Positions 12,368 through 26,268 of a stretch of 34,416 nt of DNA are shown here, in pieces. The notes beneath the pieces were generated by a model. The model was not told the DNA's origin. It did not search any database and was given only the letters and a program-made list of their open reading frames with translations. Positions within the stretch are counted from its first letter, which is position 1. Each line of letters begins with the position of its first letter. Source of the stretch: Acidimicrobiaceae bacterium (GTDB lineage: Bacteria > Actinomycetota > Acidimicrobiia > Acidimicrobiales > Aldehydirespiratoraceae); contig JAPOQG010000071.1 of the NCBI GenBank assembly GCA_026710865.1, forward strand, positions 1-34,416, given 5' to 3'. A program made the translations under genes and the position numbers.

Positions 12368-13554
12368 GCCACCACTCCGGCGGCGCGCAGGGAACCGACG
12401 CGCTCGGCGCTCACGCCGGCCTCGGCCAGCACTTCGTCGGTGTCGGCGCCCAGTGCCCGTCCGGTGTGGCGGACCGCCCCTGGCGTGGCCGACAGGCCGA
12501 AGAGCATGTTCTGCATCCGGATCGTTCCCAGATCGGGGTCCTCGACCGCGGCGACCGCACCGCGGGCCTGCACCTGGGGATCGTTCACGTACTGGGCGGC
12601 GTCGTACACCGGTGCCAGCGCCACCTCGGCCTCGGTGAAGGCCTCGACCGCCTCGGCCAGCGAGCGGGAGCCGATCCACGACGCCACCGCCTCGTCTATC
12701 TCATCGGCGTGGGCGGCCCGGCCCGCGCCCGACGAGAACCACGGCCGGCGGGCCAGGTCGCCGCGGCCGACCAGCTCCATCGTGCGGCGGGCCACCGCGT
12801 CGGCGCTGCTGGACACGGCCACCCACCGGCCGTCGGCGGTGCGGTAAGTGTTGCGGGGGGCGTTGTTGGTCGAGCGGTTGCCCGAGCGGGTCGGAATGCG
12901 GCCGGTCTGGTCCCACTCCACGATGTGGGGGCCGAGGGCCATGGCCAGCGGCTCCAGGATGGCCAGGTCGACCACCTGGCCCTCGCCGGTGGCGCGGCGG
13001 TGGTACAGGGCCATCATCACCGCGGCCACCCCGCTGATGCCCGCGACACTGTCGGCCAGGCCGAACGGGGGCAGGGTGGGGGGCCCGTCGGCGGTGCCGG
13101 TCATGTGGGCGAAGCCGCTCATCGCCTCGATCAGCGTCCCGAACGCCGGCCGCCGGGCATAGGGGCCGGCCTGGCCGAAGCCGGTGACCCGGCACAGCAC
13201 CAGGCCGGGGCGCCGCTCGGAGAGGACCTCCCAGCCCAGCCCCCAGCGCTCGAGCGTGCCCGGCCGGAAGTTCTCGATCACCACGTCGGCGCTGCCCACC
13301 AGTTGAAGGAAGATCTCGGCGCCGTCGGGATGGCTCAGGTCCAGGCCCACGCAGCGCTTGTTGCGGCCCACCATCTTGAACCACAGCCCGTGGCCGTCGC
13401 GGTGGGGGCCGTGGTTGCGCAGGCTGTCGCCCCGCTCGGGGTGCTCGACCTTGAGCACGTCGGCCCCGAAGTCGGCCATGATCTGGCCGATCAGCGGCCC
13501 GGCCAGCACGGTGGACGCATCGATGACCCGCAGGTCCGACAGGGGCCCGCTCAT
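12364..13554 (-). CDS. CaiB/BaiF class III CoA-transferase (second copy)
   Basis: A 396-residue class III CoA-transferase, first gene of a four-gene minus operon. Landmarks: LSDLRVIDASTVLAGPLIG, ADFGADVLKVEHPERGD, VIENFRPGTLERWG, TGFGQAGPYARRPAFG and the catalytic-position Asp168 in FGLADSVAG. It has the same layout as the CoA-transferase at 6454-7647, but the two are clearly diverged. The ATG at 13554 is preferred; a TTG seven codons upstream (13575) is an alternative. The start lies only 2 bp from a predicted IclR operator (13557-13581), so repressor bound there would block the promoter or leader of the whole operon. The acid it activates is unknown; a dicarboxylate from imide breakdown is the contextual guess. 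Confidence 0.92.
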   Translation of the reverse strand: MSGPLSDLRVIDASTVLAGPLIGQIMADFGADVLKVEHPERGDSLRNHGPHRDGHGLWFKMVGRNKRCVGLDLSHPDGAEIFLQLVGSADVVIENFRPGTLERWGLGWEVLSERRPGLVLCRVTGFGQAGPYARRPAFGTLIEAMSGFAHMTGTADGPPTLPPFGLADSVAGISGVAAVMMALYHRRATGEGQVVDLAILEPLAMALGPHIVEWDQTGRIPTRSGNRSTNNAPRNTYRTADGRWVAVSSSADAVARRTMELVGRGDLARRPWFSSGAGRAAHADEIDEAVASWIGSRSLAEAVEAFTEAEVALAPVYDAAQYVNDPQVQARGAVAAVEDPDLGTIRMQNMLFGLSATPGAVRHTGRALGADTDEVLAEAGVSAERVGSLRAAGVVA

Positions 13555-13556
13555 GC

Positions 13557-13581
13557 GGAACGCTGTTTCTCCCAAAGGAAC
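13557..13581. promoter_or_regulatory. Predicted IclR operator, site 1 (three half-sites)
   Basis: The sequence reads GGAAC-GCT-GTTTC-TCCCAAA-GGAAC, matching GRAAC-N3-GTTYC-N7-GGAAC. The same 25-bp arrangement occurs at 17036 and 24319. It lies in the divergent gap between the CoA-transferase operon (-) and the IclR gene (+), 2 bp from the CoA-transferase ATG. A matching motif in front of three gene pairs, one containing the regulator itself, points to the IclR protein as binder; binding is inferred. Confidence 0.72.
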
Positions 13582-13597
13582 ACGGGGCTAGTGTTCC
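13577..13597. promoter_or_regulatory. Second overlapping palindrome at operator site 1
   Basis: A perfect inverted repeat, GGAACAC-N7-GTGTTCC, shares its left arm with the last half-site of operator 1. Its right arm, CTAGTGTTCC, is the reverse complement of the GGAACACTAG that ends operator 2 (17056-17065). The autoregulatory locus therefore has four half-sites rather than three, which could allow two dimers to bind. Confidence 0.55.
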
Positions 13598-13632
13598 TCA
13601 TCGACACCCTTGATGGCAACCAGTCGAGTGAT

Positions 13633-14448
13633 ATGGACACTCCCATGAGCGAACCGTCAGCCGGATCGGGCCAAGCCTCGGGCTCCGGCCGCAGCGTGGC
13701 CGCCATCGACAGGGCGCTGGAGGTGCTGTTCCTGTTCTCGCGGGCGTCGGGCACGCTGGGAGTCACCGAGATCTCGCGGGAGCTCGGCGTGTCCAAGGCG
13801 GTGGTGCACCGGATCCTGGCCTCGCTGTGCGAGCGCAGCCTGCTGGTCGCCGACCCTCGCAGCCGCCGGTACGGGCTCGGGCCCGCAGTGATGGAGCTGG
13901 CCGCCGCCTACCGCGACCAGCTCGACGTGCGGACGCTGGCCATCGACGAGATGCGGCGGCTCAGCGCCGAGACCGACGAGACCGCCACCCTGTCGGTTCG
14001 CTACGGCGACCGCCGGGTGTACGTCGACCAGATCACCCCGCCGCGCGAGGTGAAGATGACGGTGCCCATCGGAGGGTCGTTCCCGCTGCACGCCGGCGCG
14101 TCGTCCAAGGCGTTCCTGGCCTGGCTCACCGGCGCCGAGATCGACCGCTACCTGGCCGACAACCCGCTGGACGCCCTGACCGACGCCACCGTCGTGTCGG
14201 TCGGCGAGCTCAGATCCGAACTGGAGGGCATCCGCACCCAGGGCTTCGCGCTGTCGTTCGGCGAGCGGCAGGACGACGCCGGCTCCGTGGCCGCCCCGAT
14301 CCTCGACCACAACGGCGAGCCGGTGGCGGTCATCAGCGTGTGCGGGCCGATCTACCGCTTCCGCAACAAGATCGGTCCCGCCTCCGCCGGCGTGATGGAG
14401 ACCACCCGGGCGCTCTCGGCCAAGCTCGGCGCCCAGCCCGTTGCCTGA
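13633..14448 (+). CDS. IclR family transcriptional regulator
   Basis: About 271 residues, the normal size for IclR regulators. Seen: an N-terminal winged helix-turn-helix (LGVTEISRELGVSKAVVHRILASL, then the wing LVADPRSRRYGLG) and a C-terminal effector-binding domain (PREVKMTVPIGGSFPLHAGASSKAFLAW; QGFALSFGERQDDAGSVAAPI). Two close ATG codons, 13633 and 13645, are both in frame and neither has a strong ribosome-binding site; I chose the first, which has a nearby GAG. It is transcribed divergently from the CoA-transferase operon across operators 13557-13597, suggesting autoregulation. Its stop overlaps the TTG start of the carbon-nitrogen hydrolase. It is the only transcription factor in the window and the natural candidate to control all three operator sites. 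The effector is unknown; a catabolic intermediate is usual for the family. Confidence 0.93.
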   Translation: MDTPMSEPSAGSGQASGSGRSVAAIDRALEVLFLFSRASGTLGVTEISRELGVSKAVVHRILASLCERSLLVADPRSRRYGLGPAVMELAAAYRDQLDVRTLAIDEMRRLSAETDETATLSVRYGDRRVYVDQITPPREVKMTVPIGGSFPLHAGASSKAFLAWLTGAEIDRYLADNPLDALTDATVVSVGELRSELEGIRTQGFALSFGERQDDAGSVAAPILDHNGEPVAVISVCGPIYRFRNKIGPASAGVMETTRALSAKLGAQPVA

Positions 14449-16147
14449 GAGCGAGCGCGCGCTGCACCGCCTGCGGGTGGCCGCCGCGCAGTTCGCGGTC
14501 GGCACCGACGTCGACGCCAATCTGGCCGTGTGCGTGCGGATGCTCGACGCGGCCGCGGCCGAAGGCGCTCAGCTGGTCGTGCTGCCCGAGTTCTGCAACC
14601 ACCTGTCGGTGTACGACAGCGCCGACCACTGCCGGGCGGTGGCCGTGCCGCTGGACGGCGACTGGCTGGGCGCGCTGGCCCGGCGGGCCGCCCACCACGG
14701 CATCTACGCGGCCCTGGCGGTGACCGTGCCCCGGGCCGGCGGCCGGGTGACGGTCACCAGCGTGCTGGTCGGCCCCGACGGTGAGATCATCGCGACCGCC
14801 GACAAGCAGATGCTCATGGGCAACGAGCGGGCCCGTCTGAGCGCGGGGCAGAGCCCCAGCACGGTGGCCGGCACCGTGTTCGGGCCGGTCGGGCTCTACG
14901 CGTGCATGGACGGCGTGACCTTCGAGACGCCCCGCGCCCTGGCGGTGAGCGGCGCCCGGCTGCTGTGCAACAGCCTCAACTCCTTCGCCCGCGACGAGGC
15001 GAGCCTGCACGTTCCGGTGCGGGCCGCGGAGAACGGCGTGTTCGTGGCGGCGGCCAACAAGGTCGGCTCGCTGCTGCCCGCCGACCGGATCGCCGACTTC
15101 AGCACGGCGCTGGGGGTTCCCGCCGAGGCCCTGGCGGGCGCGGGGGAGAGCCAGATCGTCGACCCCGACGGCACGGTGCTGGCCAAGGCCCCGTCGGCTG
15201 GAGAGGCGGTGATTGTGGCCGACATCGACCTGTCGCGCAGCCGACCGGAGCGGCTGGGCGGCCGCAGGCCCCGGGTGTACGGCCCGCTGGCGAGGCCCGG
15301 CACGGCTGCCCCGGCGCCGGCGGCGATGTCCAGCGTGACGGTCGCCTGCGTGCCCGGAGCACACCAGCACCCGGAGCTGATCTCAGAGGCCCTACAGGCC
15401 TCGGAGCTGATCGGGGAGGCCATGCCGGACCCGGTTGTACGGCCCGCTGGCGAGGCCCTGCAGGCCTCGGAGCTGATCGGGGAGGCCTTCGACGCAGGCG
15501 CTCTGCTGGTGGTGCTGCCCGAGTTGACTCCCGTGCCCGGCATCCCCGCCGGGGTGCTGGTGGTCACTACCGCCGAGCGCGACGGCGGCCATGTGGGCCA
15601 GGTGTGGACCTCCGGCGGGCTGGTCCACGAGCAGGCCCAGATCCACCGTTGTGACCGCCACCCGGACGTGACCCGGCTGGGGGACCGGATCAGCCTCCAC
15701 CGCACGCCGTTCGGCGACATGGCCGTGATCGTGGGCGACGACCACCGCCACCCCGAGACCATCCGGCTGGCCGCGGTGGCCGGCGCCCGCCTGGTGGCGG
15801 TGTGCTGGCAGCCCGAGCACCGCTGGGAATGCGACCTGGCCCTGCTGGAGCGGGCCGCCGAGAACAGGGTCAGTCTGGCCGCGTGCGCACCGCCGGGGCC
15901 GCTGGCGGCCACGATGCTGCTCGACCCCCCGGCCGACTCGCTGTGGAACCCCGGCCGCACGCAACCCTTCGACGGGACCATCAACGCCCCGGCGTGCCTG
16001 CGAGCCGCCCCCGGCGACGGCTTGCTGGTCGGGACCCTGCATCCCGGCCGGGCCATCAACCGGGAAGTCTCCAAGGACACCGACCTGGTCGGGGGCCGGT
16101 CCCTGGCCGCGGCCGCCGTGCTGGCCCAGCCAGGCGCTCCGGTCTAG
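14441..16147 (+). CDS. Tandem carbon-nitrogen hydrolase (nitrilase superfamily), second domain inactive
   Basis: A 568-residue protein with two nitrilase-superfamily domains. The first (about residues 10-285) has the full Glu-Lys-Cys triad: Glu50 in VVLPEFCNH, Lys122 in TADKQMLMGNER and Cys155 in GLYACMDGVTFE. The second (about 300-560) keeps the glutamate in VVLPELTPVP, but the lysine position is IHRCDRHP and the cysteine position reads VIVGDDHRHPE, so it is probably non-catalytic. The family hydrolyses amides or nitriles. The linker carries an in-frame 66-bp duplication (see the repeat at 15276-15487). The TTG start at 14441 overlaps the IclR stop by 8 bp; no other start preserves the first strand. 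It is probably co-transcribed with the regulator. An amidase role on a half-amide intermediate is an inference. Confidence 0.88.
   Translation: MPESERALHRLRVAAAQFAVGTDVDANLAVCVRMLDAAAAEGAQLVVLPEFCNHLSVYDSADHCRAVAVPLDGDWLGALARRAAHHGIYAALAVTVPRAGGRVTVTSVLVGPDGEIIATADKQMLMGNERARLSAGQSPSTVAGTVFGPVGLYACMDGVTFETPRALAVSGARLLCNSLNSFARDEASLHVPVRAAENGVFVAAANKVGSLLPADRIADFSTALGVPAEALAGAGESQIVDPDGTVLAKAPSAGEAVIVADIDLSRSRPERLGGRRPRVYGPLARPGTAAPAPAAMSSVTVACVPGAHQHPELISEALQASELIGEAMPDPVVRPAGEALQASELIGEAFDAGALLVVLPELTPVPGIPAGVLVVTTAERDGGHVGQVWTSGGLVHEQAQIHRCDRHPDVTRLGDRISLHRTPFGDMAVIVGDDHRHPETIRLAAVAGARLVAVCWQPEHRWECDLALLERAAENRVSLAACAPPGPLAATMLLDPPADSLWNPGRTQPFDGTINAPACLRAAPGDGLLVGTLHPGRAINREVSKDTDLVGGRSLAAAAVLAQPGAPV
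15276..15487 (+). repeat. Nested direct repeats in the linker of the carbon-nitrogen hydrolase
   Basis: Two repeat pairs lie inside the gene. A 36-bp unit at 15386-15421 recurs at 15452-15487 with one mismatch (offset 66 bp, encoding EALQASELIGEA twice). A 23-bp unit at 15276-15298 (beginning tgtacggcccgctgg) recurs exactly at 15436-15458. The second copies overlap each other, so the linker seems to have grown by at least two duplication events, and the reading frame was kept. Confidence 0.9.
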
Positions 16148-16962
16148 CGCTCGAGCACCCGGGCCAGCACTGACCGGGCCTGGCGCAGCACGGGAGCGTC
16201 GATGAATCGGCCGTCGAGAACCGCGACCTCCCGACCCTTGGCCGCGGCAGCCTCGAAGGCGGCCACGACGGCCTCGGCCTGGGTGATCTCGTCCTCCGAC
16301 GGCGTGAAGGCCGCGTTCACCGCGGCCACCTGCTTGGGGTGGATCACCGCCCGCCCGCCGAAGCCGTGACGGCGCAGCGACTCGCTGGTGGCGACCAGCC
16401 CCTCGTCGTCGTTGAGGTCCAGGTGCACCGGCCCGCTCGGCGCGTCCAGGCCTCGACCCACCGACGCCACCACCACCCGGGTGCGGATCGGCCACATCTC
16501 CAGCGCGTCGGCGGAGGGCTGCATGCCCATGTCGGCGGCCAGGTCGGCCTCGCCGAGGCTGAGGCGCACGACGCCGGGAACCGCGGCGATCTCGTATATC
16601 TCGGCCACGCCCACCGCCGACTCGATGAGGGCCATGACGGCGCAGCCGCCGAAGCCGGCCGCGCAGGCGGCCGGATCGGCCTTGGGCACGACCACCCCGG
16701 CCAGGCAGATGCCGTCGTCGACCAGCGACCGGACCATTGCGGCGTCGCGGTCGAGGAGGTCGGGACGGTTGTTGACCCGCACCCACGCCGGGGCGCCGGA
16801 GTTGGCCCGCAACCAGGCCGCCACCGCCTCCCGGGCGGCGGGCTTGGCCGCCTCGGCCACCGCGTCCTCCAGATCGCAGATGACCGCGTCGGCCCCCGAG
16901 GCCAGGGCCTTGTCGAAACGCTCGGGGGTGTCGCCGGGAACGTACAGAAAGGTGCGGGTCAT
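16144..16962 (-). CDS. CitE-like HpcH/HpaI family lyase (citrate/malyl/citramalyl-CoA lyase type)
   Basis: A 272-residue CitE-type TIM-barrel lyase. Seen: FLYVPGDTPERF, the metal-region ICDLEDAV (Asp30 to Asp33), WVRVNN (substrate arginine near 62), Glu114 in ALIESAVG, Asp140 in LGEADLAADMG and AVIHPKQV. The family makes or breaks C-C bonds next to CoA thioesters, for example (S)-citramalyl-CoA to acetyl-CoA and pyruvate. The ATG at 16962 has AAGGAG about 11 bases upstream. It converges on the carbon-nitrogen hydrolase, and both genes take their stop codon from the same CTAG at 16144-16147. It is divergent from the RCCR-like gene across operator 2, so it belongs to the proposed regulon. It fits as a final cleavage step after CoA activation; the exact substrate is unknown. 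Confidence 0.92.
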   Translation of the reverse strand: MTRTFLYVPGDTPERFDKALASGADAVICDLEDAVAEAAKPAAREAVAAWLRANSGAPAWVRVNNRPDLLDRDAAMVRSLVDDGICLAGVVVPKADPAACAAGFGGCAVMALIESAVGVAEIYEIAAVPGVVRLSLGEADLAADMGMQPSADALEMWPIRTRVVVASVGRGLDAPSGPVHLDLNDDEGLVATSESLRRHGFGGRAVIHPKQVAAVNAAFTPSEDEITQAEAVVAAFEAAAAKGREVAVLDGRFIDAPVLRQARSVLARVLER

Positions 16963-17026: not shown

Positions 17027-17035
17027 CGGTAGAAC

Positions 17036-17088: not shown

Positions 17089-17901
17089 ATGAGCGAGACA
17101 TTGAAGGGTGTCCAGGACATCTTCGACGAGAGGGGCCCGACCGACGCCACCGCCACGTTCGACCGGCTGTGGTCGATCACCGGCGAGATCATGTCCAAGC
17201 TCCAGTCCCGCTTCGAGCTGGCCCGCGACCCCAGCACCGACGACCTGGAGTCGTACCGGGGCGAGGCCGAGCACCCCTCGGGGCGGCTGGCGGCCTACGC
17301 CGGCCCGGAGATCGACTGGCTGGTGCACTCGTGGATCGGCAACCCGCCGCTGGGGTTCACCAACATGCACGTCACCGCCTGGCTCGGCCCCCACATCGAC
17401 GTGCCCCATCTCGGGATCGCCTGGGGCACCCTGCCCGACCTGTGGTTCTACATCGACTTCAACCCCCGCTCGGACCTCATGCTCGACACCGGCGCGCTCG
17501 ACAAGTACTGGGAGCCCTTCAACGAGGAGTTCCTGGAGCTGCGGGCGGACCCGGGGCTGTCGACGTTCACCTCACGGGCGCTCTACATCCGCCAGTCCCT
17601 CAGCGAGACCGCGGTGTGCTTCACCACTCCGGGGACCACCCACGACGAGGCCCGGCTCGAGCAGGTGCGCGAGCTGGCCCACCGGCGGGTGGACCGGTGG
17701 CTCCACTGGGTGGACGAGGCCGAGCCCGTGCCCCGTGAGCGCCGCGAGCGCCTGGCCGCCGACGACCTGGCGCGGCGGCGCACCATCGCCGAGCGGGACC
17801 CGGCCAACGTGATGGGGGTGCGGTTCTTCGGCCCCGAGATGTGCGACCGCCTGGTGCGGGCCCTGTGGGGCGGCGACCGGGTGCTGCCCCGACCGAGCTG
17901 A
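17089..17901 (+). CDS. Red chlorophyll catabolite reductase / bilin reductase-like protein
   Basis: 270 residues. The central region (about 77-185) follows the order of landmarks I recall from plant RCCR: HSWIGNPPLGFTNM, VPHLGIAWGTLPDLWFYIDF, NPRSDLMLDTGALDKYWEPFNEE, then LYIRQSLSETAV. The C-terminus (ARRRTIAERDPANVMGVRFFG) resembles the closing helix of ferredoxin-dependent bilin reductases. RCCR and these reductases share one fold and reduce linear tetrapyrroles using ferredoxin. His94 lies near the position of the PcyA active-site histidine; the acidic residue that follows in PcyA or RCCR is not obvious (PHLGIAWG). The ATG has GGAG five bases upstream. It is the first gene of a four-gene operon with a Rieske oxygenase and a second bilin-reductase-like gene. 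The family assignment is by eye and remote; the substrate is unknown. Confidence 0.68.
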   Translation: MSETLKGVQDIFDERGPTDATATFDRLWSITGEIMSKLQSRFELARDPSTDDLESYRGEAEHPSGRLAAYAGPEIDWLVHSWIGNPPLGFTNMHVTAWLGPHIDVPHLGIAWGTLPDLWFYIDFNPRSDLMLDTGALDKYWEPFNEEFLELRADPGLSTFTSRALYIRQSLSETAVCFTTPGTTHDEARLEQVRELAHRRVDRWLHWVDEAEPVPRERRERLAADDLARRRTIAERDPANVMGVRFFGPEMCDRLVRALWGGDRVLPRPS

Positions 17902-20000: not shown

Positions 20001-20035
20001 CCGAGTCCCAGGCCTCCGAGAGGCAGCAGACATGA
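19997..20035 (+). CDS. Micro-ORF 2 before the calycin-like gene
   Basis: It encodes MTESQASERQQT (12 residues), a diverged second copy of the same start unit. It overlaps micro-ORF 1 and the main gene by ATGA at both ends, forming an unbroken chain of stop-start overlaps from the ribosome-binding site at 19950 to the main start at 20032. Confidence 0.45.
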   Translation: MTESQASERQQT

Positions 20036-21006
20036 CCGACACCCGAGCCTCCGAGGCAGCAGACATGACCGACACCCGAGCCTCAGAATGGCAGCAGCGC
20101 ATCACCGGGGAGTGGTACGGCCTGCCGTCGGTGTTCGACGCCGACGGATGCCACACCGGGTTCAACAAGGTCAGCCGGGCCAGCGTCTTCGCCGACGGCA
20201 AGGTCACCTACTGGATGCAGTGCAACTTCATGAACACCGGCCCGCTGCGCAACCGTTTCGAGATCAAGGACTTCGAGTTCGGGGTGGACGACCAGGGCGA
20301 CAACCGGATCTACCAGGGCCCCGACTTCTACGGCGCCGGCCACCCCTACGGCTCGCTGGTGGACTCGCACTACTACGCGCCGGGCTGGCGGGCCGACCTC
20401 AACACCATGAACCAGATCCTGGCCGACGGGACGACCCAGGTGTACTCGTCGCTGCTGTACGAGGGTCCCACCATCTTCTCGGTGTTCAACGGCGTGTACC
20501 TCAACGCCCACGACTACGACACCAACCCCGAGACCAAGAACCGCATCGACGCCCACCTGGAGGCCGAGCAGGAGATGGCCGCCTGGCCCCACACCCTGCC
20601 CGACCGCAGAGGCGGCCAGTGGGCCGGCCCCTGCGAGGTGTTCGGGGCCGACCAGCAGCATCGGGGCAGCGTCGATGTCCGCATCCGCCACGATCCCATC
20701 GACCTGGTGCGGGCCACCCAGCAGTGGGAGATGTCCGGCGCGATCGACCGGTCGTTCACCTATGTGCGCACCCGGTCCAACGGCAACCGCCACACCTACG
20801 ACGGCCCCGACCTGTGGGGCAACGCCCTGGCCTACGGCCGGGCCCTGTACACCAGCCAGCACCACGCCAGCGAGGCCTTCAAGGTCAAGGGCCGGGAGTT
20901 CATCATCGACCGCGACCACACCCTGGCGGCGGCCTGGAAGCTGTACAGCGGCGACCGCATGACCGACATCGTGTTCGGCGCCCTCACCTGGTCGCCCGAC
21001 GCCTGA
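20032..21006 (+). CDS. Two-domain calycin-like (lipocalin/CpeS/DUF3598-type) barrel protein
   Basis: 324 residues with no signal peptide, so probably cytoplasmic. It contains two similar domains. The first (about 25-180) opens ITGEWYGLPSVFDADG and contains NRIYQGPDFYGAGHPYGSLV. The second (about 197-322) opens GGQWAGPCEVFGADQ and contains NRHTYDGPDLWGNALAYGRAL, ending in a strand motif, MTDIVFGALTW. The shared pattern G-x-W at the start, then R/H-x-Y-x-GP-x3-G, recurs in the minus-strand genes at 21140 and 21902. Calycin-fold proteins include lipocalins and the CpeS/CpeT bilin lyases and chaperones, so binding or shuttling of a linear tetrapyrrole is a reasonable guess in this operon. No catalytic motif is visible. 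The start could be 20032 or 20065 because the start unit is duplicated. Confidence 0.72.
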   Translation: MTDTRASEAADMTDTRASEWQQRITGEWYGLPSVFDADGCHTGFNKVSRASVFADGKVTYWMQCNFMNTGPLRNRFEIKDFEFGVDDQGDNRIYQGPDFYGAGHPYGSLVDSHYYAPGWRADLNTMNQILADGTTQVYSSLLYEGPTIFSVFNGVYLNAHDYDTNPETKNRIDAHLEAEQEMAAWPHTLPDRRGGQWAGPCEVFGADQQHRGSVDVRIRHDPIDLVRATQQWEMSGAIDRSFTYVRTRSNGNRHTYDGPDLWGNALAYGRALYTSQHHASEAFKVKGREFIIDRDHTLAAAWKLYSGDRMTDIVFGALTWSPDA

Positions 21007-21032
21007 GAGCGTCCTGGCGGGCATCGGCCCTT

Positions 21033-21079
21033 GAACTGGCAGCACTATGTCCGCATGGCGTGCAGAACGCTGCCAATTC
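21033..21079. other. Imperfect hairpin in the convergent gap
   Basis: GAACTGGCAGC (21033-21043) and GCTGCCAATTC (21069-21079) can pair with one mismatch around a 25-base loop, between the convergent calycin-like genes ending at 21006 and 21140. It may help end transcription, but the loop is long and no T-run follows, so I do not call it a terminator. Confidence 0.3.
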
Positions 21080-21139
21080 CCCGAGACGGGCGATGTCACG
21101 CTCCGGCGGCTGCTCCTACGGGGGTGCGGATCCGGCCGG

Positions 21140-21817
21140 TCAGCCCACCGCGACCGACACCGAGCGACCTGCTGCGTCGGCGTCCTCGATGAGCGAGAAC
21201 CCCGAGGCGCCTATCGGGTCGCGCATGGCCAGCAGTCGACGGCGGTGCAGCGCAGACGGCTGATCGGCGGCCACCAGCAGAGGCCCGACACTGCGGCGCC
21301 GGGGCCAGCTGCCCTCCACCTCGGGAACCGGCGCCGACAGATCGAGGCGGGGCTCGACCCCGGCCGACTCCGGGACGGCCACCCCGACGATGTCGGCTAC
21401 CGAGCGGCCTGCGAGCGAGAAGAACCCGCCGGTGAGCTGGCGGTCGGGGGCGACCAGCACGCTGTAGGACTCGAACTCGTAGCCGAACCGGGGCCATGCG
21501 CCCCGGCCGGTCATGGCCCCGGGGCTCCACTCGGTGCCGGCTCCCACCACATCGGGGCCGAGGTAGCGGCGCTGGGCACCGTCGATTTCCATGTCGAAGC
21601 CCCAGTCACCGGCGAAGTCGGCCATGGGGTGGCCGTCGAGCTCCGGCGACGGCTCGCAATGCTGGACGACCCGGAACCGGCCCTCGCCCGCCGGCTCGAC
21701 GCGGCGGCGCTGGATCACCGGGCCCCGGTAGGCGCCGTCGGGGTCATAGACGTGCTCGGTCACCAGCCAGGCGCCGTCGAACCGGTCGCCGCCGGGCGAG
21801 CCGTCAGCGACGGTCAT
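21140..21817 (-). CDS. Calycin-like barrel protein (paralogue of neighbours)
   Basis: 225 residues. The N-terminal domain opens DRFDGAWLVTEHVYDPDGAYRG and contains QRRYLGPDVVGAGTEWSPGAM followed by VADIVGVAVPE. This is the same G-x-W ... Y-x-GP-x3-G layout as the proteins at 20032 and 21902, so I assign it to the same calycin-like family. The C-terminal third (about 160-225) has no recognisable feature. Its ATG at 21817 overlaps, as ATGA, the stop of a 28-codon remnant of a paralogue (21814-21901), so translation was once coupled to a gene now mostly deleted. It is last in the minus-strand unit starting at 24286. Function unknown; ligand binding is the inference. Confidence 0.68.
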   Translation of the reverse strand: MTVADGSPGGDRFDGAWLVTEHVYDPDGAYRGPVIQRRRVEPAGEGRFRVVQHCEPSPELDGHPMADFAGDWGFDMEIDGAQRRYLGPDVVGAGTEWSPGAMTGRGAWPRFGYEFESYSVLVAPDRQLTGGFFSLAGRSVADIVGVAVPESAGVEPRLDLSAPVPEVEGSWPRRRSVGPLLVAADQPSALHRRRLLAMRDPIGASGFSLIEDADAAGRSVSVAVG

Positions 21818-21905
21818 GCCGGGTCGAAGGCCAGGGTGCCGTACACCGGCTCCAGTCGCTGCTCGTCGCGGTATCGGGTTTGAGGCTCCGTCTTGGTGAG
21901 GTCAT
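21804..21905 (-). CDS. Micro-ORF bridging two calycin-like genes
   Basis: An ATG at 21905 overlaps the stop of the upstream calycin-like gene (ATGA) and opens a 33-codon frame that ends at 21804, just inside the next gene. It runs out of frame through the paralogue remnant. It may only keep ribosomes moving across the gap; there is no evidence that the peptide matters. Confidence 0.25.
   Translation of the reverse strand: MTSPRRSLKPDTATSSDWSRCTAPWPSTRHDRR
21814..21901 (-). pseudogene. C-terminal remnant of a deleted calycin-like paralogue
   Basis: Read on the minus strand, this segment encodes TKTEPQTRYRDEQRLEPVYGTLAFDPA and a stop. That closely matches the C-terminus of the gene just upstream (STKAVLHIWYRGEQRLGAVYGTMGFDPA, ending 21902). 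Both stops sit in the same TCATGCCGGGTCGAAG context. The copies differ at many codons, so this is an old tandem paralogue reduced to its last 28 or so codons. Confidence 0.7.
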
Positions 21906-22948
21906 GCCGGGTCGAAGCCCATCGTGCCGTACACCGCTCCCAGCCGCTGTTCGCCCCGGTACCAGATGTGCAGGACGGCCTTGGTCGAGCCGTCCAGCGA
22001 AGCGACCTCTCGGCGCCACACCCGGCATCCGGCGGTGTCGTGGTGGAAGTGCCCGCTCAGGCCCCGGCCCCCGCTGAGAGCCGCGCTGCCGGCCACGTCG
22101 CCGGAGAGGGCGGCGCTGCCGGCGTTGTCGCCGGTGCCGGTCCACGCCGCCGAGCCGTCCGACTCCAGCGTGAAGGACGCGTCCGAAGCGAACCCGAGCC
22201 CGCACAGGCGGACCTTCATGGCCTCGCCGCCTGCCGTGGCCGGTCCGGAGGCTGCGGGAGTCAACGTCTCGGAGCAGTCGACGGTCCCGGAGGGCTCAAG
22301 GTCTCCGTCGAGGCGGTGCAGCCGGCCCGACCATCGGCCGGGCCGAAGGAGCAGTAGTTGCCCCCGGCCCGATGACGGGTCTCTGCTCGCCGCTGCGGGG
22401 TCTCTCGTCTCCGTCCCCGGAGGCGGGTGCTGGGATCTTGAGCGGCGGAGTGTCCGGGAGCCGCCATGCGGGTCGATCGGCTCCCTCTCCAGCGGCGGGG
22501 GCGCCGGAGTCGCGGGGGACTGGGAGGTCCGGAGTTGGCGCCGGTACTCGCCGACGACCGTCCAGCGGAGCTGTTCGCCCCGGCTGAGCAGCGCCAGCGA
22601 CAGTTGGTGGTTGCCGCCCGGCAGGACCATCAGGAAGAGCCGCTGGGAGAGGCCCAGGCTCGGCCAGTAGTTGTGGGTGGCCACCAGGCCGTCGCCCAGG
22701 ACCTCGGCAAGGCCGAGGTTGAGGGGTCCCTCGTAGGTGCGGTGTTTGCCGTGGTCGGCGATGGTGTAGGCGCCCGCAAGCGAGAACGGTCCCTCGAAGC
22801 TCACATCCACCGTGACCCGGCCGGCGCGATCGTCGGCCCGCACCGTGCGGGTGTCGCGGCCCATGCCGGCGAAGCGGCCGGCGCCGTCGTAGACCTCGGC
22901 CGATCCGACCCACTCGCCGAGCCCCTGGGAGAAGGAGCCTCCGCTCAC
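21902..22948 (-). CDS. Two-domain calycin-like protein with proline-rich linker
   Basis: 348 residues. Domain 1 (about 8-135) opens GLGEWVGSAEVYDGAGRF and contains KHRTYEGPLNLGLAEVLGDGL; it aligns by eye with the second domain of the 20032 protein through to its last strand (RWTVVGEYR). A proline/arginine-rich linker (about 140-200) follows. Domain 2 opens PGRWSGRLHRLDGDLEPSG and ends LHIWYRGEQRLGAVYGTMGFDPA; inside it the segment GSAALSG is repeated. The GTG at 22948 overlaps the stop of a 24-codon micro-ORF that copies this N-terminus. There is no signal peptide. Same unit as the DUF3891 gene. Probably a ligand-binding barrel protein; no catalytic residues are recognisable. Confidence 0.68.
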   Translation of the reverse strand: MSGGSFSQGLGEWVGSAEVYDGAGRFAGMGRDTRTVRADDRAGRVTVDVSFEGPFSLAGAYTIADHGKHRTYEGPLNLGLAEVLGDGLVATHNYWPSLGLSQRLFLMVLPGGNHQLSLALLSRGEQLRWTVVGEYRRQLRTSQSPATPAPPPLEREPIDPHGGSRTLRRSRSQHPPPGTETRDPAAASRDPSSGRGQLLLLRPGRWSGRLHRLDGDLEPSGTVDCSETLTPAASGPATAGGEAMKVRLCGLGFASDASFTLESDGSAAWTGTGDNAGSAALSGDVAGSAALSGGRGLSGHFHHDTAGCRVWRREVASLDGSTKAVLHIWYRGEQRLGAVYGTMGFDPA

Positions 22949-23019
22949 GCCCGCACTGGGGACAGCCCCCCGGGGACCGGCTCCCCGACCCCATCCTGAG
23001 AGAGGGCGGCTCCGCTCAC
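22945..23019 (-). CDS. Micro-ORF copying the N-terminus of the calycin-like gene
   Basis: It encodes MSGAALSQDGVGEPV... (24 residues), similar to MSGGSFSQGLGEWV at the start of the next gene. Its GTG overlaps the DUF3891 stop (GTGA), and its TGA overlaps the GTG of the calycin-like gene (GTGA). Each end has the sequence GCGTGAGCGGAG, so the junction itself was duplicated. Probably a leader that relays ribosomes. Confidence 0.45.
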   Translation of the reverse strand: MSGAALSQDGVGEPVPGGLSPVRA

Positions 23020-23834
23020 GCTCGGATCAGGTGAACCGTCTGGGTGTCCACCGGCGTGGCCGCCAGCACCGGGGCGAGGTCGGTGTCCGGCGGCTGGGGG
23101 GCCAGGTACCGGCCCTCGGTGGCCACCTCCAGCCCGTCCGCCGAGAACGGGTACGGATCGACCTCGTACACCGCGCCGGAACGCTCGGTCACCGAGATGG
23201 TCACGTCGTCGCCGACCGCCCGCGGCACGTTGTGGAACTCCGCGGCGCCCCGCTCGCCCTGCGGCGTCATGTGGAAGTACAGCGACAGCGTGTCGAAGAA
23301 CTGGAGCTGCTTGTAGGCGTTGAAGATCACATCCTCGTCGGCGAGGCCGGAGCAGTCGGAGGCCAAGTGCTGCTTGAGCCGGTGCTGGCGGCTCTCCTCG
23401 GCCTCGAGCATGGCGTCCACCTCGGGGCGCATGTCGTCTCCGATCAGGTCCAGGAAGATCTTGTCGCTGAGCCCGTAGCGGCCGCAGTACAGCCCGTATG
23501 TGTGCATCGACGAGATGACGCCGCTGAAGGGATGGTGGGTCTCGTTGAACTGCGGCGACGCGGCCGAGGTGGCCACGATCTGGGCCAGCGGCGTGGCCGT
23601 CAGGTTGTAGGGGAGCCCTGTGGCCGGATTCTGGGGGGCGGAGGCGTCGAGGCCGGCCCAGCCCGCGTCGTGGTGGTCGACGATGTACTGCATGGGCTCG
23701 GCCGGCTCGAGGCCGGCGAAGGTGTCGTTGCCGAAGTCGGCCGCCAGCGAGCCCGCGAAGGCGGTGTGCTGGTGCATGGCGATCACGAAGTGGGGGGCGT
23801 CGGCGGCCCCGCCGGCGGGCGGCTGCACGATCAT
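23016..23834 (-). CDS. DUF3891 family protein
   Basis: 272 residues resembling DUF3891, a family of unknown function with histidine-rich motifs that recall a metal-binding helical fold. Seen: AMHQHTAFAGSLAADFGND, then IVDHHDAGWAG, and later HPFSGVISSMHTYGLYCGRYGLSD; the C-terminal part is a beta-rich region with FHMTPQGERG. The conserved HHDAGW and spaced histidines suggest a metal centre. The ATG at 23834 overlaps the stop of the upstream calycin-like gene (ATGA). It lies between calycin-like genes in a unit that starts at operator 3. It may be an enzyme acting on the same ligand the barrel proteins hold, which is speculation from context. Confidence 0.8.
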   Translation of the reverse strand: MIVQPPAGGAADAPHFVIAMHQHTAFAGSLAADFGNDTFAGLEPAEPMQYIVDHHDAGWAGLDASAPQNPATGLPYNLTATPLAQIVATSAASPQFNETHHPFSGVISSMHTYGLYCGRYGLSDKIFLDLIGDDMRPEVDAMLEAEESRQHRLKQHLASDCSGLADEDVIFNAYKQLQFFDTLSLYFHMTPQGERGAAEFHNVPRAVGDDVTISVTERSGAVYEVDPYPFSADGLEVATEGRYLAPQPPDTDLAPVLAATPVDTQTVHLIRA

Positions 23835-24286
23835 GGCCGCTGCACCCGGGCGAAGTCCTGGATCTGGAACAGGTTGGTCTTGCCGTCGCGCACCTTGTGG
23901 GTGATGATGCGCCTCGTGTCGGGATCCAGGAAGTAGTGGTTGTTGTAGACGATGGTGTTGCTCACCCGGCTGTCGATGGTGAACACGTAGTTGTAGGGGG
24001 TCAGCTCGGCGCCCTCGAGGCTCAACTGGTCGCTCTCGGCGAAGCACTGCCTGCCGTCGACCCGGATCGGGGTGTCGTACACCGTCTCGCCGACGCCGTA
24101 GAGGTTCTCGAAGTGCTCGTGGAGATGCCAGGTCCGGTCGTCGAGCCAGTAGACGTCCATGTGGACCGCGCTGGACTCCAGGAAGTCGCCTTCGGGGCTG
24201 AAGCTCTTGCACAGCCCCTCCCAGCGGCCCATGAAGCACTGGTACGGCCGGGGCGAGGGCTCGCCGTAGTTCTTTTGGTTGCTCAT
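23831..24286 (-). CDS. Single-domain calycin-like (DUF3598-type) protein
   Basis: 151 residues forming one predicted beta-barrel domain. It opens YQCFMGRWEGLCKSFSPEGDFLESS and ends in RRIITHKVRDGKTNLFQIQDF, the GRWEG/SPEG opening being like the domain starts of the 20032 and 21902 proteins. The ATG at 24286 gives a tidy N-terminus (MSNQKNYGEPSP); the frame continues upstream but would cross operator 3 and the divergent gene. It is first in the minus-strand unit and overlaps the DUF3891 gene by ATGA. A bilin- or hydrophobe-binding role is inferred only from the fold and neighbours. Confidence 0.7.
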   Translation of the reverse strand: MSNQKNYGEPSPRPYQCFMGRWEGLCKSFSPEGDFLESSAVHMDVYWLDDRTWHLHEHFENLYGVGETVYDTPIRVDGRQCFAESDQLSLEGAELTPYNYVFTIDSRVSNTIVYNNHYFLDPDTRRIITHKVRDGKTNLFQIQDFARVQRP

Positions 24287-24293
24287 GACCCGA

Positions 24294-24299: not shown

Positions 24300-24304
24300 G
24301 AACG

Positions 24305-24310
24305 TAGTAT
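24305..24310 (+). promoter_or_regulatory. Possible -10 element for the chlorophyllase-like/SDR unit
   Basis: TAGTAT lies nine bases before operator 3. The same order and spacing (-10 hexamer, then operator ten bases later) is seen at operator 2. No convincing -35 was found, so the call rests on the parallel layout. Confidence 0.4.
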
Positions 24311-24318
24311 CGAGTTGT

Positions 24319-24343
24319 GAAACCGCGTTCCTCTCAGCGGAAC
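24319..24343. promoter_or_regulatory. Predicted IclR operator, site 3
   Basis: The sequence reads GAAAC-CGC-GTTCC-TCTCAGC-GGAAC, with exactly the half-sites and spacings of sites 1 and 2. It fills the 61-bp gap between the calycin-like gene (-) and the chlorophyllase-like gene (+), ending 4 bp before the latter's GTG. Confidence 0.75.
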
Positions 24344-24347
24344 CGCC

Positions 24348-25334
24348 GTGGCTGACATTGACGGCCGGGCAGACCCGATGATCGTTCGAGGCTGGCACTT
24401 CTCCTTCGACGCCGGCGGCGACCCTGCGCTGGCCACGCTGTACTACCCCGGCGACCGGCTCCGGCTAGAGGAGGCCCGCCTGAGCGGGCAGGTTCCCGCG
24501 GCGGCGGGCGGGCTGTGGCCACTGGTGATCGTGATGCCCGGCATCAACGTGGCCCCCGACGGCTACCGCTGGCTGGCCCGCCGGTTGGTGCCCTGCGGTG
24601 TGTGCGTCGTGACCTACGCGGCCATCGGATCGCTGGGTCCCGCGGGCCGGGGCATCACCCCCGGTCTGGACCTGGCCGCCCTGGCCCCGGAATCCATCGG
24701 CTCCCGGCCGGTGGCGACCGCGCTCGGACCGCTGCTCGAGCGCCTGGCCCGCGTCTCGGATGCCGACGACTCCCCGGTCTCGGGACGCCTGGACTTCGGT
24801 CGGGTGGTGATGGGAGGCCATTCGGCGGGGGGCACCGCCGCGCTGCACGCCAGCGATCCGAAGTGGGTGCCGGGCCTGCGGGCCGTCTTCGCCTACGGCG
24901 CCCACACCATGGCCGCGACTGCGCTGGGACACGGCGAGGCCGCCGTCGTTCCCGTCCCGGCCGAGGTGCCGGTCATGCTGCTCTGTGGCGCGAGCGACGG
25001 GGTGATCGCAGCCAGCCGCGACCGCTACCGCCACGGCGGCGGCGTCCACGACCCCGTCCGCCGAACATTCGAGGAGGCCATCGGCCGGAGTCGGGGGGAC
25101 TCGTGGCTGGTCGAGCTGGCCGGCGCCGGCCATTTCGCCGTCTGCCATCCGGTGGACACCACCAGCGGCCGCGCATTCCTCGAGCCCGATCCAACCGAAG
25201 CCGACCCCTCCGCCCGGGAGCTGATCGGGGACCTGATCGCCGCCTTCGTGGCTGCCGGCCTCGAGCAGCTGGCCGGCGCGGGCCTGGAACAGCTGGTCGA
25301 GCACGATCTGGTCGCGCACTGGGAACGGCGTTGA
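24348..25334 (+). CDS. Chlorophyllase/dienelactone-hydrolase-like alpha/beta hydrolase
   Basis: 328 residues with an alpha/beta-hydrolase core: oxyanion strand WPLVIVMPGINVAPDGYRWLARRL, nucleophile elbow MGGHSAGGTAALH (Ser159), acid strand VPVMLLCGASDGVI (Asp217) and His262 in GAGHFAVC. The strand order, the Y-x-P opening (TLYYPGD), the GHSxGG elbow and the hydrophobic-ester-type lid region recall plant chlorophyllases (GHSRGG), which remove phytol from chlorophyll; dienelactone hydrolase and PET-hydrolase-like esterases share these features. The GTG at 24348 lies right after operator 3; an in-frame ATG at 24378 is the alternative. The C-terminus carries a short repeat, GLEQLAGAGLEQL. It is co-oriented with a chlorophyll-b-reductase-like SDR, which is why a pigment ester is the favoured guess. 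Confidence 0.78.
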   Translation: MADIDGRADPMIVRGWHFSFDAGGDPALATLYYPGDRLRLEEARLSGQVPAAAGGLWPLVIVMPGINVAPDGYRWLARRLVPCGVCVVTYAAIGSLGPAGRGITPGLDLAALAPESIGSRPVATALGPLLERLARVSDADDSPVSGRLDFGRVVMGGHSAGGTAALHASDPKWVPGLRAVFAYGAHTMAATALGHGEAAVVPVPAEVPVMLLCGASDGVIAASRDRYRHGGGVHDPVRRTFEEAIGRSRGDSWLVELAGAGHFAVCHPVDTTSGRAFLEPDPTEADPSARELIGDLIAAFVAAGLEQLAGAGLEQLVEHDLVAHWERR

Positions 25335-25350
25335 GCGCGGCGTGCTGGCG

Positions 25351-25457
25351 ACAATCGACGGCTCAAGGGAGCGCACGTGGACACTGTGGATGCGCCGCTC
25401 GAGGCGGCGGTGATCGACCGGTCACAATCGACGGCTCAAAGGAGCGCGCATGGACAC
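25351..25457 (+). repeat. Duplicated ribosome-binding site and start codon before the SDR gene
   Basis: A 34-bp unit at 25351-25384 recurs at 25424-25457 (offset 73 bp, three mismatches). Each copy includes acaatcgacggctcaa, a GGGAG or AGGAG ribosome-binding site, and a start codon (GTG in copy 1, ATG in copy 2) followed by gacac. Copy 2 drives the SDR; copy 1 opens a 28-residue out-of-frame ORF. Confidence 0.92.
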
Positions 25458-25463
25458 CAATAG
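25377..25463 (+). CDS. Micro-ORF overlapping the SDR start
   Basis: It starts at the GTG of the first initiation copy, behind GGGAG, reads MDTVDAPLEAAVIDR... for 28 residues, and ends at TAG 25461-25463, just inside the SDR gene. Its first residues, MDT, match the SDR (MDTNRG). It has a full ribosome-binding site, so translation is plausible and could affect SDR output. Confidence 0.35.
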   Translation: MDTVDAPLEAAVIDRSQSTAQRSAHGHQ

Positions 25464-26268
25464 AGGCCAGAGGATCGTCGTCACCGGGAGCACGAGGGGC
25501 ATCGGCAACGGTCTGGCCCGGGAGTTCCTCAAGCGGCGGTGCCGGGTGGCGATCAGCGGGCGCTCGGCCGCCCAGGTCGAGGCGGTGGTGGCCGAGCTGG
25601 GCCGGTACTACGGAGAGTCGAGAGTCTGCGGCGCGGCCTGCGACATCACCGAGTCCGGCCAGCTCCAGGCGCTGTGGGACGGCGCGGCCGAAGCCTTCGG
25701 CGGCGTCGACGTGTGGGTCAACAATGCGGGCATGAGCATCGAGCGCGGGCCGCTGTGGGAGCAGCCCGACCGGGATCTCGCCACGCTGGTCGACACCAAC
25801 CTCACCGGGGCGCTGCTGGCCAGCAAGACCGCCATCGCCAACATGCTGCGGCAGGGCCATGGACAAGTGTGGAACACCGAGGGATTCGGATCCGACGGCG
25901 CCACCCAGCCCGGCATGGCTGCGTACGGCGCCACCAAGCGGGCGGTGCGTTACTTGCAGCGCGCTCTGCTCAAGGACACCGCCGGCACGCCGGTTCAGGT
26001 GTGCACCGTGTCGCCCGGCATCGTGGTCACCGACCTGCTGACCGGCGACTACGACGTGACCTCCGAGGAGTTCGAGAAGGCCAAGAGGATCTTCAACGTC
26101 CTGGCCGACGAGGTCCACACCGTCACGCCGTGGCTGGTCGACCACATGCTGGCCGCCGACAAGTCGGGGGCCAGGGTGGTGTGGCTGACCCGCCGCAAGG
26201 CCTTCGCCCGGTTCATGGCCGCCCCGTTCCGCACACGCGACCTCTTCAGCCACCTCGACACGGCGTGA
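25450..26268 (+). CDS. Short-chain dehydrogenase/reductase resembling chlorophyll b reductase (NYC1/NOL)
   Basis: A 272-residue classical SDR: TGSTRGIG (12-19, NAD(P)H binding), NNAG (91-94), Asn117 and the catalytic Tyr159-x3-Lys163. Ser148 lies in NTEGFGSDGATQPG, which copies the unusual NxDGxGSxG pattern and exact 17-residue spacing to Tyr that I recall in plant NYC1/NOL. Further parallels are VVTGSTRGIGNGLAREFL, VSPGIVVTDLL and a C-terminal extension (RIFNVLADEV...SGARVVWLTRRKA) matching NYC1's MFNII...GSGKAVNYLTPPR. NYC1/NOL reduce chlorophyll b to the 7-hydroxymethyl form. The ATG at 25450 has AGGAG seven bases upstream. It lies after the chlorophyllase-like gene in the operator-3 unit. 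Assignment to an SDR is certain; the chlorophyll b reductase link is by remembered similarity. Confidence 0.9.
   Translation: MDTNRGQRIVVTGSTRGIGNGLAREFLKRRCRVAISGRSAAQVEAVVAELGRYYGESRVCGAACDITESGQLQALWDGAAEAFGGVDVWVNNAGMSIERGPLWEQPDRDLATLVDTNLTGALLASKTAIANMLRQGHGQVWNTEGFGSDGATQPGMAAYGATKRAVRYLQRALLKDTAGTPVQVCTVSPGIVVTDLLTGDYDVTSEEFEKAKRIFNVLADEVHTVTPWLVDHMLAADKSGARVVWLTRRKAFARFMAAPFRTRDLFSHLDTA

Follow-up and report, generated by a model that had tools for sequence, protein, structure and literature searches.

A conserved bacterial gene cluster encoding enzymes of the chlorophyll-breakdown type

To determine which genes lie in the candidate chlorophyll/bilin catabolism cluster of an Acidimicrobiaceae bacterium (assembly GCA_026710865.1, contig JAPOQG010000071.1), we analysed a stretch of 34,416 nucleotides, positions 1 to 34,416 of the forward strand, referred to here as the window. 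The original prediction placed in 13554-26268 look-alikes of NYC1/NOL, chlorophyllase, the Rieske oxygenase class, RCCR and PcyA, together with four calycin-like proteins and a DUF3891 protein. The named genes are all present and the observation is confirmed, although the fourth calycin was not, and the cluster is wider than predicted, spanning about 5798-34398. No tRNA and no Rfam match were found in the window.

The first core gene, 17089..17901 (+), encodes an RCCR-family reductase of 270 aa, which matches the Pfam family RCC_reductase (PF06405) with an E-value of 1.1e-13 and 51.5 bits, against a cut-off of 24.9, but Fe_bilin_red (PF05996) with only 16.6 bits, below the cut-off. The profile of its family matches Arabidopsis RCCR (AtRCCR, 3agb) at 1.7e-15. 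It is followed after 21 bp by a Rieske non-heme iron oxygenase, 17923..19074 (+), with PF00355 (4e-22) and the VanA_C domain PF19112 (2.1e-27), in which C47, H49, C66 and H69, as well as D163, H166 and H171, are invariant in 25 sequences. The window protein has no match to the PaO domain (PF08417) at E<=0.1, and its nearest solved relatives are SxtDIOX/SxtT and NdmA, which act on small alkaloids. We rejected the possibility that it is PAO.

The third core gene, 19208..19924 (+), has a GTG start and encodes a protein of 238 aa, which alone gives no Pfam or NCBIfam hit. However, 25 of 41 members of its family match PF06405 at E<=1 (best 3.4e-6), whereas 6 of 41 match PF05996 (best 1e-4), and the 41-member profile matches AtRCCR at 4.3e-5 and HY2 at 0.0044. 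With AtRCCR as a single query the relationship is weaker, as only 5 of 61 19208-type proteins are detected, with a best value of 4e-4. The AlphaFold model (m1e6e5ef44ecd, pLDDT 95.7) matches AtRCCR in ranks 1-9 of a Foldseek search of the PDB, followed by PebA, PcyA and HY2; ranks 1-43 are RCCR, PebA, PcyA, PebS, HY2 and PebB, with TM values to the query of 0.58-0.77. This indicates a second member of the RCCR/FDBR superfamily with the predicted bilin-reductase fold, closer to RCCR than to PcyA, so that the proposed PcyA identity was rejected.

We aligned both families with AtRCCR. D168 is kept in 39 of 39 bacterial RCCR-like sequences and in 41 of 41 of the 19208 family, and R172 in 39 of 39 and 40 of 41, respectively. 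Glu154, the catalytic residue of AtRCCR, is Ala in 35 of 39 RCCR-like sequences, including the window protein, Glu in 2, Thr in 1 and Val in 1, while the 19208 family has Asp at this position in 41 of 41. Asp291 of AtRCCR aligns with Glu in 34 and Asp in 5 of the 39 RCCR-like sequences, with an invariant Asp two columns on, but this column depends on gap placement. In the phylogenetic tree each family is one side of a branch (91/92 and 100/100). When AtRCCR was compared with the orthologues, the best scores fell on lake Actinomycetota and cyanobacteria, but AtRCCR sits on a very long branch, with a risk of long-branch joining, and we draw no origin of plant RCCR from this result.

The fourth core gene, 20065..21006 (+), whose ORF is also open from an ATG at 20032, encodes a predicted two-barrel calycin, a putative ligand carrier. 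A sequence search of the PDB gave no match at E<=10, but its model (pLDDT 93.0) matches BFA1 (1.6e-9, rank 1) and DUF3598 (7.8e-9, rank 4), with the bilin lyase CpeS (1.5e-3) only at rank 15, below TbpB and porins; lipocalins are also found further down. The gene at 21902..22948 (-) is a paralogue (hhalign 1.2e-18), and the 225-aa calycin-like protein of 21140..21817 (-), 68-86% identical in the 12 loci listed, is in turn related to the 21902 protein (1.5e-7). The small conserved protein of 23831..24286 (-) is a calycin by eye only, as there is no convincing profile link to the other calycins. Both 21902 and 23831 are near RCCR in 16 of 26 Acidimicrobiia-type and 2 of 2 Chloroflexi loci. Between them lies the DUF3891 protein, 23016..23834 (-) (PF13030, 2e-33). 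The ORFs 21047-21883 (+) and 20083-21099 (-) are conserved too, but lie opposite better-supported genes and were rejected. A G+C-frame filter missed the genes at 8659, 11543, 13633, 21140 and 23016, which were found from the ORF list, Pfam and conservation.

The alpha/beta hydrolase, 24348..25334 (+), with a start at 24348 or 24378, is chlorophyllase/polyesterase-like, with GHSAGG, D207 and H252 invariant in 29 sequences. The window protein has only a weak PETase hit (3e-4, below cut-off); of 29 aligned family members, 18 match Chlorophyllase (PF07224) at E<=0.01 (best 1e-7), the window protein not among them, but 23 match PETase and 20 DLH. The short-chain dehydrogenase/reductase (SDR), 25450..26268 (+), matches PF00106 at 2.2e-39, with Y159xxxK163 and S148 invariant in 26 sequences, and only generic SDR hits were obtained, from searches that included no NYC1/NOL model or plant sequence. 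Both calls are generic.

On the other side of the core we identified a set of putatively degradative genes. These include a two-domain nitrilase-family amidase, 14441..16147 (+) (PF00795, 1.1e-45), with a Glu-Lys-Cys triad read by eye in the first domain; an IclR-type regulator, 13633..14448 (+) (PF01614, 5.8e-39; BhcR-like, below cut-off); an HpcH/HpaI C-C lyase, RipC/CitE-like, 16144..16962 (-) (PF03328, 1.4e-29; NF038242, 8.7e-44, below cut-off); a family III CoA transferase, 12364..13551 (-) (PF02515, 7.4e-123); a PF04199 'Cyclase' metal hydrolase of the kynurenine formamidase family, 11543..12367 (-) (1.6e-28); an MmgE/PrpD-type hydratase, 10116..11558 (-) (PF03972, 1.3e-54); and a cyclic amidohydrolase of the allantoinase/hydantoinase family, 8659..10119 (-) (PF01979, 4.4e-14; TIGR03178, 4.8e-62, below cut-off). 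Further out are an HMG-CoA-lyase-like protein, 7735..8632 (+) (start approximate; NF004283, 344 bits, over its cut-off of 246), a second family III CoA transferase, 6454..7647 (-) (start approximate; PF02515, 7.1e-120), and an isochorismatase-family amidase, 5798..6457 (-) (PF00857, 6.2e-34), with an Asp-Lys-Cys triad read by eye. Beyond the SDR lie a Liv-type ABC importer, 26383..33176 (-), with membrane/ATPase fusions and a solute-binding protein (PF02653, PF00005 and PF13458, the last with 35.6 bits against a cut-off of 31.7), and an acyl-CoA-dehydrogenase-like flavoprotein, 33196..34398 (-) (PF02770/PF02771).

The arrangement goes beyond chance: the four core genes are adjacent and in the same order in 13 of 13 near relatives, although in one of them several genes are split across frames. 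In a wider set of 80 loci kept, the four core genes lie on one strand within 5 kb in 60: 26 of 26 Acidimicrobiia-type loci (which are taken to include the 13 near relatives) and 34 of 36 other Actinomycetes, that is, 60 of the 62 loci that we class as actinobacterial, but 0 of 16 cyanobacteria and 0 of 2 Chloroflexi, one of which has RCCR, hydrolase, Rieske and 19208 type, and then the contig ends. In cultured actinomycetes the core usually forms an operon with the hydrolase and the SDR. Of 10 Chloroflexi regions examined, two (L124 and L130) also keep RCCR, Rieske, 19208 type and a calycin, whereas in another locus (L126) a diverged RCCR lies by FAD-monooxygenase-type and aldehyde dehydrogenase genes. 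RCCR and the 19208 family occur in the same 13 of 100 genomes, the source genome included. Among viral contigs there were 2 pattern matches, none a relative, and neither reductase had a match among plasmids.

To assess the genomic context, we searched for marker families. Heme oxygenase (PF01126) was absent from 11 of 11 Acidimicrobiia searched, of 14 found here to carry the cluster, and from 2 of 2 Chloroflexi, while it was detected in 3 of 14 controls, which argues against endogenous bilins in these organisms and favours chlorophyll over heme; in contrast, 3 of 3 cultured actinomycetes tested do have it. BchL, the only chlorophyll-synthesis gene searched for, was over its cut-off in 0 of 18 non-cyanobacterial genomes that carry RCCR with its partners, and was found in the 1 cyanobacterium. 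The Mg-dechelatase STAY-GREEN (PF12638) was not found in 21 of 21 RCCR-bearing genomes, namely the source genome and 20 others, of which one is a cyanobacterium without the core and another has only part of it; both searches lacked a positive control. In 298 Chloroflexi genomes this model does match in 11, and RCCR occurs in 10, with no overlap, though only about 0.4 would be expected by chance.

The interpretation of the original prediction, a chlorophyll/bilin catabolism regulon, is partly supported. A conserved tetrapyrrole-type catabolic unit is well supported by two RCCR/FDBR-superfamily proteins and a Rieske oxygenase in fixed synteny, a calycin, degradative neighbours and the lack of a BchL match over its cut-off in the 18 non-cyanobacterial genomes searched. 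Two outcomes had been set in advance as refuting it, and neither was observed: the 17089 and 19208 proteins do not belong to unrelated folds but are of the predicted one, and the Rieske gene is not always tied to a non-tetrapyrrole aromatic pathway but to these two proteins in 60 of 80 loci. 'Chlorophyll/bilin' is, however, an inference, and the lack of a PaO match in the window's Rieske protein, the lack of a Mg-dechelatase match in the genomes searched, the replacement of Glu154 mostly by Ala and the generic SDR and hydrolase calls argue against a copy of the plant pathway.

With moderate confidence, we propose that the cluster is a catabolic regulon for a tetrapyrrole, most likely a chlorophyll-derived one (pheophorbide, its ring-opened product, or phyllobilins from algae and leaf litter), in organisms that probably do not make chlorophyll. 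In this view, the hydrolase would remove an ester, as chlorophyllase or MES16 do in plants, and the Rieske oxygenase, fed by ferredoxin, would oxygenate the substrate and may open the macrocycle. The two RCCR-type proteins, each bound to the open-chain product, would carry out successive ferredoxin-dependent two-electron reductions, calycins would hold or hand over the poorly soluble intermediates, and the SDR would adjust a carbonyl. The amidohydrolase, PF04199 hydrolase, nitrilase and isochorismatase-type amidase would open the lactam or imide rings and release ammonia, and the CoA transferases, PrpD-type hydratase and HpcH/HMGL lyases would split the branched dicarboxylates, of the kind that hematinic acid or methyl-ethyl-maleimide would give, to central metabolites. 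Maleimides and hematinic acid are reported from senescent leaves and lake sediments (PMC7318184), although that study itself found hematinic acid but no maleimides. Our data establish the families, the fold, the residues, the synteny and the co-occurrence, whereas every substrate, any reduction of RCC to pFCC and the order of the steps are inferred.

Among the alternatives, the strongest, though unlikely, is that the FDBR/RCCR fold has been taken over for a soluble non-tetrapyrrole N-heterocycle, degraded by Rieske hydroxylation, ferredoxin-dependent reduction and amide hydrolysis, as in riboflavin or caffeine pathways. This would agree with the proximity of the Rieske protein to SxtT/NdmA among solved structures, the loss of Glu154, the hydantoinase-type, amidase and CoA enzymes, the Rieske dioxygenase of the riboflavin pathway (PMC12746152) and the gene neighbours in L126. 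However, two separate RCCR-fold families are kept together, every characterised enzyme of this family known to us acts on linear tetrapyrroles, the 19208 family has an acid at position 154 in 41 of 41, and a calycin resembling BFA1 and DUF3598 accompanies them. A heme-derived substrate, biliverdin or bilirubin, reduced as by PcyA/PebA and then degraded, also appears unlikely: PebA, PcyA and HY2 do follow RCCR in the fold search, the 3 cultured actinomycetes tested carry a heme oxygenase in the genome, and active pre-PcyA enzymes are described in heterotrophs (PMC10151467), but heme oxygenase is absent from the Acidimicrobiia and Chloroflexi searched and the RCCR-like protein scores higher against RCC_reductase than against Fe_bilin_red, although IsdG-type enzymes and bilins taken up from outside are not excluded.

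Still less likely is that the operon makes or tailors a specialised tetrapyrrole-like metabolite, as suggested by the frequency of the compact operon in actinomycete genera with a repute for secondary metabolites and by the Rieske, SDR and hydrolase, which are usual tailoring enzymes. The Liv-type importer, CoA transferases, hydratase and lyases that adjoin the core in Acidimicrobiia, and the IclR and, in two Chloroflexi, GntR/UTRA regulators, suit catabolism instead, and no PKS/NRPS- or tetrapyrrole-synthesis-type Pfam match was found among the window proteins scanned. The least likely possibility is that the core serves detoxification of a tetrapyrrole only and that the amidase/CoA genes are an unrelated pathway that became its neighbour in Acidimicrobiia. 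Hydratase, PF04199 and CoA-transferase genes are indeed near the core in 19-20 of 26 Acidimicrobiia-type loci but only 0-2 of 36 other Actinomycetes, and so may be a separate pathway; in contrast, the nitrilase is near the core in both groups (24 of 26 and 33 of 36), the HpcH lyase in 26 of 26 and 15 of 36, and L124 in Chloroflexi has the amidohydrolase beside the core.

A more far-reaching possibility, which we put forward only tentatively, is that this is a bacterial pathway that mineralises chlorophyll, in which aerobic heterotrophs take up chlorophyll breakdown products, open and reduce them with the Rieske oxygenase and the two RCCR-type reductases, and feed the pyrrole-derived carbon and nitrogen into central metabolism. 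Plant RCCR would then belong to a family that bacteria use for pigment consumption, across Actinomycetota and Chloroflexota. Chlorophyll is made and destroyed on a scale of 10^12 kg a year (PMC7318184). Bacterial SGR has been the subject of earlier papers (PMC8531759, PMC11006732), but our literature searches, which covered open-access papers only and are thus weak evidence of absence, revealed no bacterial RCCR-Rieske operon and no bacterial genes or pathway for consuming ring-opened chlorophyll. The presence of a conserved, compact operon in culturable actinomycetes makes the question testable. The finding also adds two bacterial families to the RCCR/bilin-reductase superfamily, one with an acidic residue where plant RCCR has its catalytic glutamate, and bears on where plant RCCR came from.

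The riboflavin/lumichrome catabolic operon (PMC12746152) is likewise actinobacterial, with a Rieske oxygenase and amidases, but its Rieske enzyme is a multi-component dioxygenase, and we saw no RCCR-type protein in its description. The pre-PcyA clusters (PMC10151467) also contain bilin-reductase relatives in non-photosynthetic bacteria, but encode bilin-binding globins, whereas no globin was among the Pfam matches of the window. The ferredoxin-dependent bilin reductases PcyA, PebA, PebS and HY2 share the predicted fold of the 19208 protein, which is nearer to RCCR in sequence, and no heme oxygenase was found in the 13 Acidimicrobiia and Chloroflexi genomes searched. AtRCCR (2zxk, 3aga, 3agb) shares family, fold, D168 and R172, but differs at Glu154. 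The plant PAO/phyllobilin pathway of chlorophyll breakdown likewise has an RCCR-family reductase, a Rieske oxygenase, a chlorophyllase-like hydrolase and an SDR, but here these are encoded in one bacterial operon, with VanA_C and no PaO match in the Rieske protein, no STAY-GREEN found, two RCCR-type proteins, and calycins and degradative genes added.

The contig of 34,416 bases that carries the cluster belongs to a 4.33 Mb genome in 424 contigs and has about 70-75% G+C, and the close relatives that bear the same cluster are mostly titled Acidimicrobiia/Acidimicrobiales MAGs. To place the two predicted reductases, we compared each of them with the RCCR and bilin reductase families by sequence, profile and predicted structure. 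The protein encoded from position 17089 (the RCCR-like protein) passes the Pfam cut-off for RCC_reductase (51.5 bits against 24.9) and stays below that of Fe_bilin_red (16.6 against 31). A profile of 14 orthologues finds Arabidopsis RCCR (AtRCCR) at E 1.7e-15, followed by a bilin reductase at 9.5e-5. In contrast, the protein encoded from position 19208 gives no Pfam match on its own. Its 13-member profile gave RCCR as the three best of five rows, at E 0.008-0.009, while a 41-member profile gave RCCR at 4.3e-5 and phytochromobilin synthase at 0.0044. Of the 41 members, 25 match PF06405 at E<=1 (best 3.4e-6), and a profile-profile comparison with the RCCR-like family gives E 1.2e-15, although with AtRCCR as a single query only 5 of 61 proteins of the 19208 type are recovered, the best at 4e-4. 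The AlphaFold model of the 19208 protein (pLDDT 95.7) matches AtRCCR in ranks 1-9, and PebA, PcyA, HY2, PebS and PebB down to rank 43. A midpoint-rooted tree of 49 rows puts each family on one side of a branch, with support of 100/100 for the 19208 family and 91/92, short of the star given by the program, for the RCCR-like family, so the two are probably old paralogues.

In an alignment with AtRCCR, Asp168 and Arg172 are kept in 39 of 39 RCCR-like proteins, and in 41 and 40 of 41, respectively, of the 19208 family. Glu154, which is catalytic in plant RCCR, is Ala in 35 of 39 RCCR-like proteins but Asp in 41 of 41 of the 19208 family (Asp85 of the 19208 protein); two cyanobacterial RCCR homologues (loci L106 and L107) keep Glu at this position, unlike the other 37 of the 39 aligned. 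At the position of Asp291 the RCCR-like family is acidic in 39 of 39 and the 19208 family in at least 35 of 41, with an invariant Asp two columns on in both families, though the gap placement in this region is uncertain. One reading is that the two proteins divide successive reductions, as PebA and PebB do, whereas another is that the RCCR-like protein has a changed reaction.

In 13 genomes found by the family search, the genes for RCCR, the Rieske protein, the 19208 type and the calycin encoded from position 20065 are adjacent and in the same order in 13 of 13, the HpcH lyase is near in 13 of 13 and the nitrilase in 12 of 13. In one of these relatives (locus L023, 2307-10848; same contig as locus L029), the Rieske, 19208, calycin, hydrolase and SDR genes are split across frames while RCCR reads through 265 aa, which points to sequencing errors or decay. 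A scan of species genomes gave 123 relatives, of which 80 were kept; these include the 13, so the two counts are not independent, and many of the 80 are close kin. By tblastn with the window proteins at 60 bits or more, the four core genes lie on one strand within 5 kb in 26 of 26 Acidimicrobiia-type MAGs, 34 of 36 other Actinomycetes, 0 of 16 cyanobacteria and 0 of 2 Chloroflexi. The group labels were assigned by us from the record titles, and the 26 include loci titled only 'bacterium' or 'Actinomycetota', as well as locus L042, titled Rhodospirillaceae, whose cluster groups with Acidimicrobiia. The two misses among the other Actinomycetes are loci L055 and L082, around 10 kb: Nonomuraea corallina has an RCCR homologue outside the operon, with ABC transporter genes near, and in Actinoplanes couchii the core rule also fails, although weaker Rieske and nitrilase matches lie beside RCCR. 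Three Nostoc/Desmonostoc loci, which like the other cyanobacterial loci lack the core by this rule, carry two tandem RCCR homologues 2 kb apart (at 7.9 and 10.0 kb in L086, 8.0 and 10.0 kb in L088, and 7.9 and 10.0 kb in L091).

In Nocardia, Nonomuraea, Streptosporangium, Actinoplanes and Streptomyces the usual order is nitrilase-RCCR-hydrolase-Rieske-19208-calycin-SDR (locus L089 lacks the hydrolase), so the hydrolase and the SDR, which are several kb away in the window, belong to the unit. The hydrolase is near in 33 of 36 other Actinomycetes, 15 of 26 Acidimicrobiia-type and 2 of 2 Chloroflexi loci, and the SDR in 34 of 36, 15 of 26 and 0 of 2, several of the MAG loci being too short to show them. 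RCCR and the 19208 family occur in the same 13 of 100 genomes, own genome included. Of 396 genomes drawn across the phylum, 3 have RCCR, again including the own genome, and it was found in 0 of 14 control genomes.

Ten RCCR regions from Chloroflexi were also examined. One of them, L133, is from the same genome as L093, a Chloroflexi locus of the set of 80. Region L130 has RCCR-hydrolase-Rieske-19208-calycin-SDR, and L124 has RCCR-Rieske-19208 with calycins, DUF3891 and the amidohydrolase. The other seven have RCCR with other partners, which are nitrilase and/or isochorismatase genes (L125, L126, L127, L129 and L132) or a calycin (L128 and L131). In the former five the RCCR is diverged (36-39% identity), and L126 and L127 also have FAD-monooxygenase-type genes and L127 a different Rieske oxygenase, perhaps representing a second RCCR-based pathway.

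The Rieske protein has both metal sites and a VanA_C domain, and its nearest solved relatives are SxtDIOX/SxtT and the methylxanthine demethylases. The calycin is predicted to form two barrels, which resemble most the plant BFA1 and the cyanobacterial DUF3598 and, at rank 15, the phycobilin lyase CpeS. The DUF3891 protein (PF13030; 23016-23834, minus strand) is near RCCR in 16 of 26 Acidimicrobiia-type and 2 of 2 Chloroflexi loci, together with the calycins. Upstream lie genes for hydrolases that by family act on amides, lactams or cyclic imides (the nitrilase and isochorismatase triads were read by eye), two CoA transferases, a PrpD-type hydratase and two C-C lyases, with an IclR regulator, while downstream there are a Liv-type importer and an acyl-CoA-dehydrogenase-like protein. 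This set suits a conversion of lactam or maleimide fragments to CoA esters, in which the chemistry is inferred; maleimides and hematinic acid are reported in leaves and lake sediments (PMC7318184). A large bacterial alpha-2-macroglobulin-type protein at 1-5709 (plus strand), open at the contig end, is unrelated to the cluster as far as seen.

To narrow down the inferred substrate, we searched genomes for enzymes of heme and chlorophyll metabolism. Heme oxygenase (PF01126) was not found in 11 of 11 Acidimicrobiia genomes searched, out of the 14 that carry the cluster, nor in 2 of 2 Chloroflexi, but it was found in 3 of 3 cultured actinomycetes and in 3 of 14 controls; the MAGs, however, are not complete. 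That the core is one functional unit is near certain, and it is likely that this unit acts on a linear or opened tetrapyrrole. That the tetrapyrrole is chlorophyll-derived and consumed is about as probable as not, and its full mineralisation is possible but more doubtful. In the open-access literature searched, including passages that mention Schekmanbacteria, we found no description of this operon.

BchL reaches its cut-off in 0 of 18 non-cyanobacterial genomes and in the 1 cyanobacterium examined, while weaker hits of related ATPases occur in all. STAY-GREEN was not found in the own genome and 20 others. A further search showed that the model works, since it finds STAY-GREEN in 11 of 298 Chloroflexi genomes, with no overlap with the 10 that have RCCR there, which chance alone would give (about 0.4 co-occurrences expected). 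The cluster thus more likely consumes than makes pigment, and it is not a copy of the plant pathway: if chlorophyll is the source, the magnesium is lost otherwise, or the substrate enters later.
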